Shown: one piece after another, positions 48,944 to 53,863 of the stretch
Layout of the letters: each line of letters opens with the position of its first letter
Numbering within the stretch: the first letter of the stretch is position 1
Assembly (NCBI RefSeq): GCF_003711805.1
Contig: NZ_QXCP01000005.1
Location: forward strand, 248,001-312,000
Length of the DNA stretch: 64,000 bases
Direction: 5' to 3'
Origin: Brachybacterium sp. EE-P12
GTDB taxonomy: Bacteria; Actinomycetota; Actinomycetes; Actinomycetales; Dermabacteraceae
Program-made: the position numbers and the translations under genes
Notes under the pieces: model-generated
Seen by the model: the letters and a program-made list of their open reading frames with translations, nothing else
Database searches by the model: none
Told to the model about the DNA's origin: nothing

Positions 48944-50350
48944 TCAGGCGAGCGGCGGATCGGCGGCGGCGGCGCCCTGGGCGCGGATCTCCTCGAGCAG
49001 CGCGTCCACGGCCGGGTGCTCTGTGGCGAAGGGGTCCATGACCTGCACGGGCATCGCCCCCTGACGGGTCAGGCGCAGCGTGGTCCAGTCCACCACGTGG
49101 TCCACGCCGTGCTCCTGGGCGGCGGCGACCACCCGGCCGCGCAGGTGGGCGCGCGTCGTGGTGGGTGCCTGGGTGCGGGCGCGCTCGATCCGCTCCTCGG
49201 GCAGCACCGTCGGCGCCAGGCCCCGCCGCTGGAGCGCGTAGAAGACACCCCGCGCGGGGTCGATGTCGTGATAGGCGAGGTCCAGGCGCTCGATCGACGG
49301 GTCCTCGAGGTCGATCCCGCGGCGTTCCATGACCTGGGTGAACAGTCGCTCCTTGATCGCCCAGTCGAGGTTCTGCGCGGCCCAGCCGCGGTCCCCGGTG
49401 CGCACCGCGTCCAGGGCGCGCTGCCAGGTCTCGAGCACGTCGGTCTCGGAGTCCTCGGCGAGATCGGCGACATGGTCGAGCCAGCGCTGCTGGATCTCGA
49501 GGGCGCTGAGCGTGCCGCCGCCCGCGGTGGGCAGCGGCGCGGTGCCGGCGAGGTCGCGGGCCACGGCGCGGATCGCGGCGATGTCGTCGCCCAGGCCCAG
49601 CTCGGGCAGCGCACGACCGGACTCGATCGCGCGCAGCACCAGGTCTGTGGTGGCGAAGCGCAGATGGGTGGAGACCTCGCTCATCGTGGAGTCGCCGACG
49701 ATGACGTGGAGGCGACGGTAGAGGTTCGCGTCCCCGTGCGGCTCGTCGCGCGTGTTGATGATGGGCCGGGTGCGGGTGGTGGCCGAGGAGACCGCCTCCC
49801 ACATGTGGTCGCTGCGGCGGGAGAAGACGAACTGCGCCCCGGCGCCGTGGCCGGCCTCGCCCTCGACGGCGGGGGCGACGCCGCCGGCGCCGGTGACGAT
49901 CTGCCGCGTGACGAGGAAGGGCAGCAGGTAGCGGGGCAGGCGGGTGAACTCCCCGCGACGGTCCACGAGGTAGTTCTCGTGGGAGCCGAAGGCGTTGCCG
50001 GCGGAGTCGACGTTGTTCTTGAGCAGGTGGATGCGCGCGTCGTGGCCCGCCTCGGCGAGGCGCTCGTCGGCCGTGCGGGTGAGCTCGGCGAAGATCCGCT
50101 CCCCGGCGCGGTCCTGGGCGACCAGCTCCCACCAGTCGTCGCACTCTGCCGTGGCGTACTCCGGGTGGGAGCCGACGTCGAGATAGAGCCGGGCGGCGTT
50201 GCGGAGGAACACGTTCGAGGAACGGCCCATCGCGACGACGGGTCGGAACAGCTCGCGCGCGGCCTCCTCCGGCTCGAGGGCGCGGTTGCCGTCGGCGCGC
50301 ACGCACACGAGTCCGAACTCCGTCTCCAATCCTCCCACTCGGCGCTTCAT
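48944..50350 (-). CDS. pafA: Pup-protein ligase PafA
   Basis: A 468-residue carboxylate-amine ligase of the glutamine-synthetase fold that attaches Pup to lysines of target proteins with ATP. KRRVGGLETEFGLV opens the nucleotide site with the metal Glu residues; LKNNVDSAGNAFGSHENYLV and RPIINTRDEPHGD follow, and [13 protein letters not shown] is conserved. Without the Dop-loop insertion it is PafA, not Dop. It starts four bases after pup, the slot where prcB and prcA usually lie. Coupled with pup, dop and arc in one leftward operon. Confidence 0.96.
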   Translation of the reverse strand: MKRRVGGLETEFGLVCVRADGNRALEPEEAARELFRPVVAMGRSSNVFLRNAARLYLDVGSHPEYATAECDDWWELVAQDRAGERIFAELTRTADERLAEAGHDARIHLLKNNVDSAGNAFGSHENYLVDRRGEFTRLPRYLLPFLVTRQIVTGAGGVAPAVEGEAGHGAGAQFVFSRRSDHMWEAVSSATTRTRPIINTRDEPHGDANLYRRLHVIVGDSTMSEVSTHLRFATTDLVLRAIESGRALPELGLGDDIAAIRAVARDLAGTAPLPTAGGGTLSALEIQQRWLDHVADLAEDSETDVLETWQRALDAVRTGDRGWAAQNLDWAIKERLFTQVMERRGIDLEDPSIERLDLAYHDIDPARGVFYALQRRGLAPTVLPEERIERARTQAPTTTRAHLRGRVVAAAQEHGVDHVVDWTTLRLTRQGAMPVQVMDPFATEHPAVDALLEEIRAQGAAAADPPLA

Positions 50351-50354
50351 CGGG

Positions 50355-50570: not shown

Positions 50571-52247
50571 TCAGGATGCGGTGACCGCCCGGCGCAGAGC
50601 GTCCAGGACGGTCTCGAGGTCGTCGGCGGGGTCGATGCCGTGGCGCGCGCACCAGTCGGCGCTGCCCAGGCGCGGGTCCGCCAGGCGCAGGCGGTGCCCG
50701 CCCTCGGGGCCGGCGAGGGTGATCGCGTCCCAGCCGGCGGAGGGCACCCGCGGGCCGTGCGCGGAGATGAGCCCGCCGCGCAGGTGGGCGCGGGTGCTGC
50801 CCGGCGCAGCGGTGACCGCGGCGGCGACCTCCTCGGGGGTGACGAGCGTCGGGGCGGCGCCGGCGGTGCGGAGCTTGTCGAACAGGCCTCGGCCGGGACG
50901 CAGGTCGGAGAACTGCAGGTCGACCATGAGCAGGCGCGGATCGGACCAGTCCAGGCCGTGGCGGGCGCGGTAGCGCTTGAGCAGGGACAGCTTCGCGACC
51001 CATTCCACGCGGGAGGCGGCGAGCATCGGGTCCCGCTCGAGCAGGTCCAGGATCTCGCCCCAGGCGCGCAGCACCTGGGCGGTCTCCTCGTCCTCGCCGT
51101 CGGCGACGGCGCTGAGCGCCTCGAGGTGGGCGCGCTGGATCTGCAGGCCGGTGAGCTCGCGGCCGTCGGCCAGCGGCACGCTCGCGCGCAGGGTCGGGTC
51201 GTGGCTGATGGTGCGCAGCGCGGCGACGGGGTCGGCGAGGGCGAGGTCCGGGAGGATCCGGTGCCCGGTGCGCTGCTCGGCCTCGAGAGCGGCGAGGACG
51301 AGGGAGGTGGTGCCGAGCTTGAGGAAGGTCGACTCCTCCAGCAGGTTCGCGTCCCCGACGATCACGTGGAGGCGGCGGAAGCGGTCGCGGTCCGCATGGG
51401 GCTCGTCGCGGGTGTTGACGATCGGGCGGTTCAGGGTGGTCTCGAGCCCCACCTCCGCCTCCATGAAGTCCGCGCGGGAGGAGAGCTGGAAGCCGGGCTC
51501 CTCCCCCCGGGTGCCGATCCCGACGCGGCCCGCGCCGACGAGCACCTGGCGGGTCGCGAAGAAGGGCAGCAGCGCCTCGACGATGCGTTCGAAGGGCACC
51601 GCACGGTCCACGAGGTAGTTCTCGTGCGTGCCGTAGGAGGCGCCCTTGCCGTCGGTGTTGTTCTTGTGCAGCGCGACCTCGGGGATCCCGTCGGCCGCAC
51701 CGAGGATCTCCATCGCGCGGCGCGCGATCTCCTCGCCGGCGCGGTCGGCGACCACCGCCTCCCGGGCGCGCAGCACCTCGGGGGCCGAGTACTCGGGATG
51801 CGCGTGGTCGACGTACAAGCGGGCGCCGTTGCGCAGCACGGCGTTGCCGATCGAGCGCTGCGAGGCCCAGGCGAGCACCTCCGCGTCGTCGCCCTCGGGG
51901 GCGACCTCGGGGCCGGTGACCGGGGCGTCGAGCTCGACGCTGGGCACGTGCGCATCGCGCACCTCGTCGGTGAGCTGCGTGGGGTGGGCGGCGGCGCGCT
52001 GGAGCTCGAAGCCGCGGGCGTCGCGCAGCGGGGTCTCGTCCCCGTAGTCCCAGCGCACCCGTCGGCCCCGCTCCCCCTCGGCCGGATCCAGCAGCGCGTA
52101 GGCGCCGACGACCAGGTGGGACAGCAGGATCGAGCTGCCCGCCCCGGCGCGGGCGCGCTCCTCGAGGTCGGCGTGGAGCACCCCGAACTCCGTCTCGATG
52201 CCCATCACCCGCTCGGTGGTCAGGCCGGCGGTGCCGTCGGTGTTCAT
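50571..52247 (-). CDS. dop: Pup deamidase/depupylase Dop
   Basis: A 558-residue PafA homologue that converts Pup-Gln to Pup-Glu and removes Pup from substrates. [20 protein letters not shown] starts the domain; the insert after it, up to about residue 75, is the Dop loop absent from PafA. Conserved elements include [39 protein letters not shown] and [13 protein letters not shown]. The ATG overlaps the arc stop by four bases. Pup follows 24 bases downstream. Confidence 0.95.
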
Positions 52248-53863
52248 GCGGTGACCTCCTCGGGGTGCTCGGCGGCGTCGGCGTGCTCGGCGTCCTCCGC
52301 GGCGACGCCCTCGCCCGGCAGGACGCGCTCCTGCAGCGGGACCACGGCCTCGACGCGGCGGCGGGAGCGGCCGGGCAGGCCGGTCACGCGCGCCCAGTCC
52401 TCGGCATGGGACGCCGAGGGCATGTCCTCGTTCTCGGCGAACTCGACCCGGATCGCCTCGAGGAGGTGCTCGGAGCCGACGCCCACCACGCCGGTGGCGA
52501 GCTGCTCCTTGACGGCGAGCTTCTTCGCACGATCGACGATGTTGCGCAGCGTCGCGCCGGAGACGAAGTCGCGGAAGTGGAGGGTGTCGTGCCCGCCGTC
52601 GGAGTACTCGACCCGCACGTAGGCGGAGGCGGGGCCCTCGGCGTAGATCTCCCGCACGGCGAGGTCGAGCAGGGCCTCGCGGTCCTCCCGCACCGGCACC
52701 TCCTGGCCGAGGTAGAGGCCGAGGATCTCGCGGCCGGCGCGCGCGTTGGGGCGGCGCACCCGGATCTTCACGTCCAGGCGTCCCGGGCGGAGGATCGCGG
52801 GATCGATCATGTCCTCGCGATTGGAGGCGCCGATGACGATGACGTTGTCGAGGCCCTCGACGCCGTCGATCTCGGCGAGCAGCTGGGGCACGATCGTGGT
52901 CTCCACGTCGCTGGACATGCCGGTGCCGCGGGTGCGGAACAGCGCCTCCATCTCGTCGAAGAAGATGACGACGGGATGGTCCGCGGCGGCCTTCTCACGG
53001 GCCCGCTCGAAGACCAGCCGGATCGACCGCTCGCTCTCCCCGACGTACTTGTTCAGCAGCTCGGGGCCCTTGACGTTGAGGAAGGCGGAGTTCGCGAGCG
53101 CCTCCTCGACGCTGACGCCGCGCACCTCGGCGCTGCGCAGCACGAGCTCATGGGCGACGGCCTTGGCGATCATCGTCTTGCCGCAGCCGGGAGGGCCGTA
53201 GAGCAGCACGCCCTGCGGGGGCCGCAGCCCGTAGGTGCGGTAGAGGTCCTGCTGGAGGAAGGGCAGCTCGACCGCGTCGCGGATCGCCTCGATCTGCTCG
53301 CCGAGCCCGCCGATCTCGGCGAAGGAGACCTCGGGGACCTGCTCGAGCACGAGGTCGGTGATCTCGGCACGGTCGATCCGCTCGAGCACGAGCTGGCTGC
53401 GCAGGTCCACGAGCACGTGGTCACCGGGGTGCAGCGCCTCCTCGCTCAGCGCCCCGGCGCGGCGCAGCACCCGGGTGTCGTCGGGGGCGACGGCGACGAG
53501 CACGCGCGAATCGGCGAGGGCCTCGACGACGGGCACGACGTTGCCCGCATCACCCTGCGGGACAGCCTCGACGGCCGCGAGGGCCTCGTTCAGGCGCAGC
53601 TCGGTGCCGGGGGTGAGGTCATCGAGGTCGAGGCTCGCGGCGGTGGCGACGCGCAGGCGTCGACCGTGGTGGAGCACGTCGATGGTGGTGCCCTCGCAGC
53701 GGCGCAGGAAGGTGGCGTAGGAGTTCGGCGGATCGCCGACGCGCTCGAGGTCGTTCTTGAGCTCGACGATCTGGGCGCGGGCGGAGCGCAGCCCGCTGAC
53801 CAGTCGCTCGTTGTGGGCGGCGAGCTTCTCGAGCTCGGCGGTCATCTCCGCGTAGGTCTTCAT
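52244..53863 (-). CDS. arc: AAA ATPase ARC/Mpa forming ring
   Basis: A 539-residue Pup-dependent unfoldase. The N-terminal coiled coil ([20 protein letters not shown]) that catches Pup is followed by two OB-fold domains, then the AAA module: Walker [16 protein letters not shown], Walker [16 protein letters not shown], and sensor/Arg-finger region [22 protein letters not shown] (seen as [14 protein letters not shown]). The C-terminus ends HPEEVTA. Mycobacterial Mpa ends GQYL, which docks into the 20S proteasome; that motif is absent, as in Corynebacterium ARC. ATGA overlap with dop. Confidence 0.94.

Follow-up and report, generated by a model that had tools for sequence, protein, structure and literature searches.

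A complete pupylation system without a 20S proteasome in Brachybacterium, and signs in its relatives of uncoupling before loss

The window analysed here is a stretch of 64,000 nucleotides from Brachybacterium sp. EE-P12 (family Dermabacteraceae; contig NZ_QXCP01000005.1, positions 248,001 to 312,000 of the forward strand). It carries the genes for protein pupylation: arc, dop, pup and pafA. Our analysis argues for a complete and selectively maintained pupylation system that operates without a 20S proteasome in Brachybacterium, with the ATPase ARC probably acting as a free-standing unfoldase and with the 20S uncoupled first and then lost. We put the probability of this reading at roughly 0.7. 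The general kind, that is Pup and ARC without a 20S and an ARC without the terminal GQYL, is already published. What appears to be new from the sequence comparison is a graded series within Dermabacteraceae and an apparent uncoupling in a second family, f7.

The four genes lie together on the minus strand, as an earlier note on this DNA had described, and all four window proteins score above their NCBIfam equivalog cut-offs:

52244..53863, minus strand: arc, orthologue of Mpa, 539 aa (TIGR03689, 665 bits; cut-off 504.75)
50571..52247, minus strand: dop, depupylase/deamidase, 558 aa (TIGR03688, 580 bits)
50355..50546, minus strand: pup, 63 aa, ending in GGQ (TIGR03687, 72.3 bits; cut-off 41.45)
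50351..50354, minus strand: pup–pafA junction of 4 bases, from the coordinates; the place of prcB and prcA in 20S-bearing relatives
48944..50350, minus strand: pafA, Pup ligase, 468 aa (TIGR03686, 594 bits)

The start of dop overlaps the stop of arc by 4 bases. The end of pup at 50355 and the start of pafA at 50350 leave no room for prcBA, in agreement with the same note; this slot is occupied in the 20S-bearing relatives (L021/L102, L101, L104, L105 and L107). An alignment of Dop with PDB entry 9cku shows that the ExEFG-type start and a 14-residue block are conserved, and the catalytic blocks of PafA are conserved in the alignment with PDB entry 4b0t. The GGQ end of Pup means that deamidation by Dop is needed. 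With such a Pup and with PafA and Dop orthologues that retain their catalytic blocks, the locus is a bacterial pupylation system. Pup ends in GGQ in 18 of the 22 Dermabacteraceae loci read and in GGE in the other four. The closest relatives of the window ARC are found in Brachybacterium, the top one being B. paraconglomeratum with 93% identity. Compared with three Brachybacterium species, the window genes have a ratio of non-synonymous to synonymous substitution rates (dN/dS) of 0.13–0.19 for arc, 0.19–0.22 for dop and 0.15–0.23 for pafA; the three genes are under purifying selection.

The window genome comprises 3.96 Mb in 21 contigs and is 99.99% complete. A profile search of the whole genome with the 20S/HslV family PF00227 gives no match, and a 20S encoded elsewhere in it was therefore rejected; the first refuting condition named in the earlier note, prcA or prcB at another place in the genome, did not come true. 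Bpa (PF10759) has no match in this genome either. No Cpa/CDC48-like protein with two AAA domains is found in it at E 1e-40, the two matches being ARC itself and a 761-residue AAA frame that we take to be FtsH. Across the genus, PF00227 is matched in none of 38 Brachybacterium genomes, of which 33 are at least 90% complete and nine are one-contig assemblies, so that the absence is no artefact of a single assembly. The earlier note was correct about the absence, with one correction: PF00227 is matched in just 191 of the 396 genomes sampled from the order, and lack of the 20S is common there, not exceptional.

Two contacts hold mycobacterial Mpa on the 20S, according to the accessible part of the structural report: the GQYL tail in a pocket of the alpha-ring, and the hairpin ANGDK, with D504 and K505, along the alpha-ring helices (PMC8755798). 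The window ARC ends in HPEEVTA, as noted earlier, without a GQYL tail, and an alignment with PDB entry 7px9 places SDGGH at the position of ANGDK of Mycobacterium tuberculosis Mpa. Judged by its sequence, the window ARC retains neither of the docking contacts of Mpa. The same alignment shows that the Walker motifs are kept and that the pore loop reads YVG, against FVG in M. tuberculosis. A GQYL hidden past the ARC stop is ruled out by the 4-base overlap with dop and by the tails of all named loci of the genus, none of which ends in YL. Two determinants, the tail and the hairpin, support a loss of docking. A YL end occurs in none of the 23 named Dermabacteraceae ARC loci; in a separate set of tails from nine family genomes, four of them the same genomes as named loci, YL (as GGQYL) appears in one genome only (G044). 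The Brachybacterium tails differ in length and sequence and share no terminal motif. The hairpin is ADGTT in Dermabacter and AGGDK in G044.

How the proteasome may have disappeared can be read from the rest of the family, sampled with 47 genomes (38 in the window genus, namely 37 and the window genome). PF00227 is matched in five: none of the 38 Brachybacterium genomes, three of the four Dermabacter genomes (g2), the single g3 genome (G042) and the single g5 genome (G044). The single Helcobacillus genome (g4, G043) and the two g6 genomes have no match. Bpa is matched in one of the 47, again G044, which has the full system with an ARC tail GGQYL, a hairpin AGGDK, a Bpa ending in GTGQYL and prcBA in the pup–pafA slot. 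On an rpoB tree of 30 rows, G044 branches as sister to the remaining 19 rows of the family (support 100/100). In the family except G044, no ARC tail read ends in YL and no genome matches Bpa, while prcBA is still present in four genomes (G038, G039, G041 and G042). In each, prcB and prcA occupy the pup–pafA slot, without a YL tail on ARC and without a Bpa or Cpa match:

L102:5772-7210: prcB and prcA of G039
L101:6052-7490: prcB and prcA of G038
L104:6196-7634: prcB and prcA of G041
L105:6736-8285: prcB and prcA of G042

The slot is the same in all five 20S-positive family genomes. The alignment of the G039 PrcB covers the mature start and shows the catalytic threonine retained, with the same TT start in G038, G041 and G042; the lysine that we take to be the PrcA pocket lysine is retained as well. 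Among the three Dermabacter genomes, dN/dS is 0.09–0.13 for prcB and 0.05–0.07 for prcA, compared with 0.08–0.11 for PriA, 0.03 for arc and 0.04 for pafA. Dermabacter prcBA is therefore maintained under purifying selection, prcB less strictly. Since G044 is intact and its relatives lack YL and Bpa while four of them keep prcBA, uncoupling of the 20S in Dermabacteraceae appears to have preceded its loss, which took place several times unless there was regain. A single clade of all 20S-negative family rows is rejected on rpoB (approximately unbiased (AU) test, p = 2.8e-41), and with it a single loss without regain for all of them. A clade of Brachybacterium, Helcobacillus and G040, with g6 left out, is also rejected (p 2.1e-7). 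Without regain at least three losses are required, and six on the tree as drawn. The independent loss of prcBA claimed in the earlier note is thus supported, with the basal G044 keeping prcBA, Bpa and a GGQYL-ended ARC; an ARC in genomes lacking the 20S is seen in further families of the order as well.

The probable course of events would be the following. In the ancestor shared by the whole family except G044, loss of the ARC tail and of Bpa would have left an uncoupled 20S. This would still be kept in three Dermabacter genomes and G042, and would have been lost later in Brachybacterium and others, more than once unless regained. In Brachybacterium, Pup ending in GGQ would be deamidated by Dop and then joined to lysines by PafA. 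ARC, with its unfoldase core intact, would grip the pupylated proteins and, having no docking contacts, would probably serve as a free-standing unfoldase or disassembler that unfolds its substrates without degradation. Pup would then be removed by Dop, as proposed for C. glutamicum ferritin. Unfolding or storage-type control in place of degradation, the role suggested in the earlier note, may be extended to Brachybacterium by analogy with the published C. glutamicum case; this part of the proposal rests on the Corynebacterium precedent.

Family f7 may show an uncoupling of another form. ARC tails were read in 35 20S-bearing f7 genomes, all of one genus, g12 (e.g. L205-L213, L218-L243, L298-L317, L336 and L337), and none ends in YL. 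In 27 of the 35 the tail finishes instead with a common [DN]x[DS]L[VLI], as in RPNSDLV, TPDPDLL, GDSSLI and PDDSLL; of the other eight, three end in TPTPV or TPTAV, two in MSMF and one each in DSGLV, VQHD and LQGT. At the hairpin position of D504, 26/26 f7 genomes with Bpa that were compared have a different residue, whereas 14/14 controls have D and the YL-tailed ARC proteins with a hairpin read all have D or E. The f7 Bpa ends in GNYL in all 22 sequences read of 29 (seven unread, four of them weak Bpa matches), the control Bpa in GQYL in 18/18. The Q of the GQYL motif is not essential according to the accessible part of one report (PMC12288473), so a Bpa ending in GNYL should dock. The f7 20S may thus still be served by Bpa and no longer by ARC, whose new end might bind another partner.

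Taken together, these cases raise the possibility that pupylation and the 20S are separable in one cell. The 20S of f7/g12 would work with Bpa alone, with ARC engaged elsewhere, perhaps with a new partner; that of Dermabacter and G042 would work with an unknown activator or unaided; and Brachybacterium would represent the end stage of uncoupling. We hold this reading tentatively, at slightly less than even odds, because 24 of these 26 f7 genomes retain K or R at the K505 position and because most controls likewise have no Cpa. The Cpa search found no Cpa-like protein in 14 genomes that have a 20S but neither a YL tail nor Bpa, a weak negative, since just one (G078) of seven further genomes with a 20S covered by that search had such a protein.

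Over the sampled order, the 20S is matched in 191 of 396 genomes and Bpa in 158. A 20S without a Bpa match occurs in 34 of the 191, and the reverse, Bpa without 20S, in one (G378). For 118 of the 191 genomes with a 20S the ARC tail was read; 75 have YL and 43 do not, a ratio that is no frequency given that f7 is the most heavily read family. The non-YL tails among these 118 are confined to three families: f1, which is Dermabacteraceae (four genomes, G038, G039, G041 and G042), f17 (4/4) and f7 (35/35). Elsewhere YL is found in all 54 tails with Bpa and in all 20 without it; absence of Bpa alone is therefore no sign of a lost tail. In f17 (L201-L204) ARC ends in HLEL, HVEL, QVEL or QVEA and Bpa is absent from all four genomes. 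The hairpin is largely kept there (AGGDK, ESGDR, ASGDQ, ASGDK), and f17 was not counted as uncoupled, as its ARC may still dock. Three f17 loci (L202-L204) have no prcBA beside ARC within the stretch examined, though their genomes match PF00227. Among the 173 20S-negative genomes outside Dermabacteraceae, ARC was searched in 80 and found in 59; 28 of the 30 tails read there are non-YL, these being among the best-scoring ARC matches and so leaning towards conserved tails. In family f16, none of 17 genomes has an ARC match (E 1e-80) or a 20S match, and the sampled f16 seems to be without the ATPase of the pupylation pathway. Two genomes, G087 (L139/L216) and G300 (L140/L217), have an incomplete or split ARC frame with 20S genes in the slot, which may be assembly errors or real breaks.

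Several observations weigh against our reading, in particular against the order in which the tail goes first and the 20S last. G378, of another family (L214, G378:C9:76000-90000; pup–pafA gap of 272 bases), has Bpa and an ARC ending in TGQYL without a PF00227 match. ARC ends in RDYL in G197 and in AGGYL in Georgenia (L077), and Janibacter (L032) keeps the hairpin AGGDK, all three without a 20S match in the genome. The 20S may therefore go first in some lineages, and the proposed order is not universal. In G042 the hairpin has changed conservatively (TGGER). Dermabacter prcB has dN/dS values three to four times those of arc and pafA, which would fit relaxed constraint, and the dS values of 0.9–2.2 behind these ratios are partly saturated. 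In Brachybacterium, Pup gives dN/dS of 0, 0.56 and 0.89 in the same comparisons with three species, from 61–63 codons, a number too small for interpretation. How many losses took place is uncertain as well. On rpoB alone, monophyly of Brachybacterium is weakly rejected (p 0.036), and the test does not reject one loss shared by Helcobacillus and G040 (p 0.07). Three changes are enough on the rpoB tree if regain is allowed, in a count that gave no label to the 20S-negative outgroup rows G135 and G136, and prcBA could thus have been re-acquired.

The alternative with most to recommend it is that pupylation still leads to degradation, with ARC unfolding its substrates and either releasing them or handing them on to a different protease (ClpP, FtsH or Lon, for example). 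The retained pore loop and Walker motifs would suit such a role, the presumed FtsH is present (Clp and Lon were not searched), and the common end that replaces the f7 tail in 27 of 35 genomes is what a new partner would need. The Brachybacterium tail, variable in length and sequence and without a common terminal motif, is unlike a docking signal, and we regard this route as unlikely. Somewhat less likely still is a re-acquisition of prcBA by Dermabacter, G042 or both after an early loss in the family. Equal-weight parsimony favours it, with three changes against three or more losses without regain (six as drawn). Against it, prcBA occupies the same slot in all five positive family genomes, and in the PrcBA tree Dermabacter and G042 form a group with an SH-like approximate likelihood ratio (SH-aLRT) support of 98 and no outside donor in the sample, though their branches are long and G044 stands apart from them.

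Two further explanations carry little weight. Pupylation might be a decaying remnant, jobless after the loss of the 20S, and ARC, Dop and PafA are indeed further from a Nostocoides reference in 20S-negative family members than in G044. The same lower likeness is seen in the 20S-positive Dermabacter, the four window genes are all intact, and ARC is present in 9/9 family genomes outside Brachybacterium. Together with dN/dS of 0.13–0.23 for arc, dop and pafA and the conserved catalytic blocks, this makes decay very improbable. Least probable of all is a 20S that is present yet overlooked through an assembly gap or extreme divergence. Dermabacter PrcA scores about 29 bits against a cut-off of 22.4, and a more diverged copy could fall under it; but the slot is just four bases long, 38/38 Brachybacterium genomes are negative, nine of them in one contig, and Bpa is absent too. 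A maintained pupylation system without a 20S remains the reading that we prefer.

The surroundings of the locus contain the following genes:

53916..55001, minus strand: TrmI-like tRNA methyltransferase, commonly found just upstream of arc (PF14801 and PF08704)
47906..48847, minus strand: FKBP-type prolyl isomerase, downstream of pafA (PF00254)
47485..47868, minus strand: second FKBP-type prolyl isomerase (PF00254)
33066..35072, minus strand: fused PafB-PafC with two WYL stretches and the PafC helix-turn-helix domain (PF13280, PF19187)

A trmI match is present in 78 of 80 loci, and the downstream FKBP genes also recur in related loci. After the fused pafBC come tatA, tatC and the gene of a DSHCT helicase; the block lies about 14 kb from pafA and forms, in other actinobacteria, the far part of the Pup locus. 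A DUF3866 protein (35141-36286, plus strand) adjoins pafBC in divergent orientation. Further away (5583-9128, minus strand), a stand-alone glutamate-synthase central domain protein of 547 aa lies beside a pyruvate-oxidase-like thiamine diphosphate enzyme, a call that rests on an NF006129 score barely above the cut-off.

According to the accessible part of a review, all actinobacteria with a 20S have Bpa (PMC8223512); this co-occurrence breaks in the sampled order, where 34 of the 191 genomes with a 20S show no Bpa match. We found no report of 20S-bearing actinobacteria with a tail-less ARC in the literature searched, most subscription papers being outside reach. The relatives of the window genome suggest that the tagging machinery can uncouple from the proteasome before the proteasome is lost. 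Natural uncouplings of this kind would open a long-standing question to experiment, namely which roles pupylation has apart from degradation, and genomes with an unplugged 20S could be compared with their relative G044, in which the docking signals are intact.

Compared with the mycobacterial Pup-proteasome system, the window genome has orthologous ARC, Pup, PafA and Dop, but has no 20S, Bpa or Cpa match, and both the tail and the hairpin contacts of its ARC are changed. The system is closer to that of Corynebacterium glutamicum. As far as the accessible text of the reports goes, proteasome-less actinobacteria retain an ARC that lacks the docking motif, with pup immediately upstream of pafA (PMC3511204), and the docking hairpin is not conserved in C. 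glutamicum ARC (PMC8755798). Both systems thus lack prcBA, have pup next to pafA and have an ARC without the docking motif and with a non-conserved hairpin. They differ in that the Brachybacterium Pup ends in GGQ and needs deamidation by Dop whereas C. glutamicum Pup ends in Glu, according to the same partly available source (PMC3511204), and in that the families are different and the losses separate. The target reported for C. glutamicum ARC, in the accessible parts of two papers (PMC8223512, PMC12288473), is pupylated ferritin; its disassembly under iron limitation characterises the C. glutamicum type. The uncoupled 20S of Dermabacter can be compared with Propionibacterium acnes, which is described in the accessible part of one report as having a 20S without ARC and Bpa (PMC4254994). 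Both have prcBA without the usual activators; in contrast to P. acnes as reported there, ARC and the pupylation genes are still present in Dermabacter and G042, though their ARC has no YL tail and Bpa is absent.

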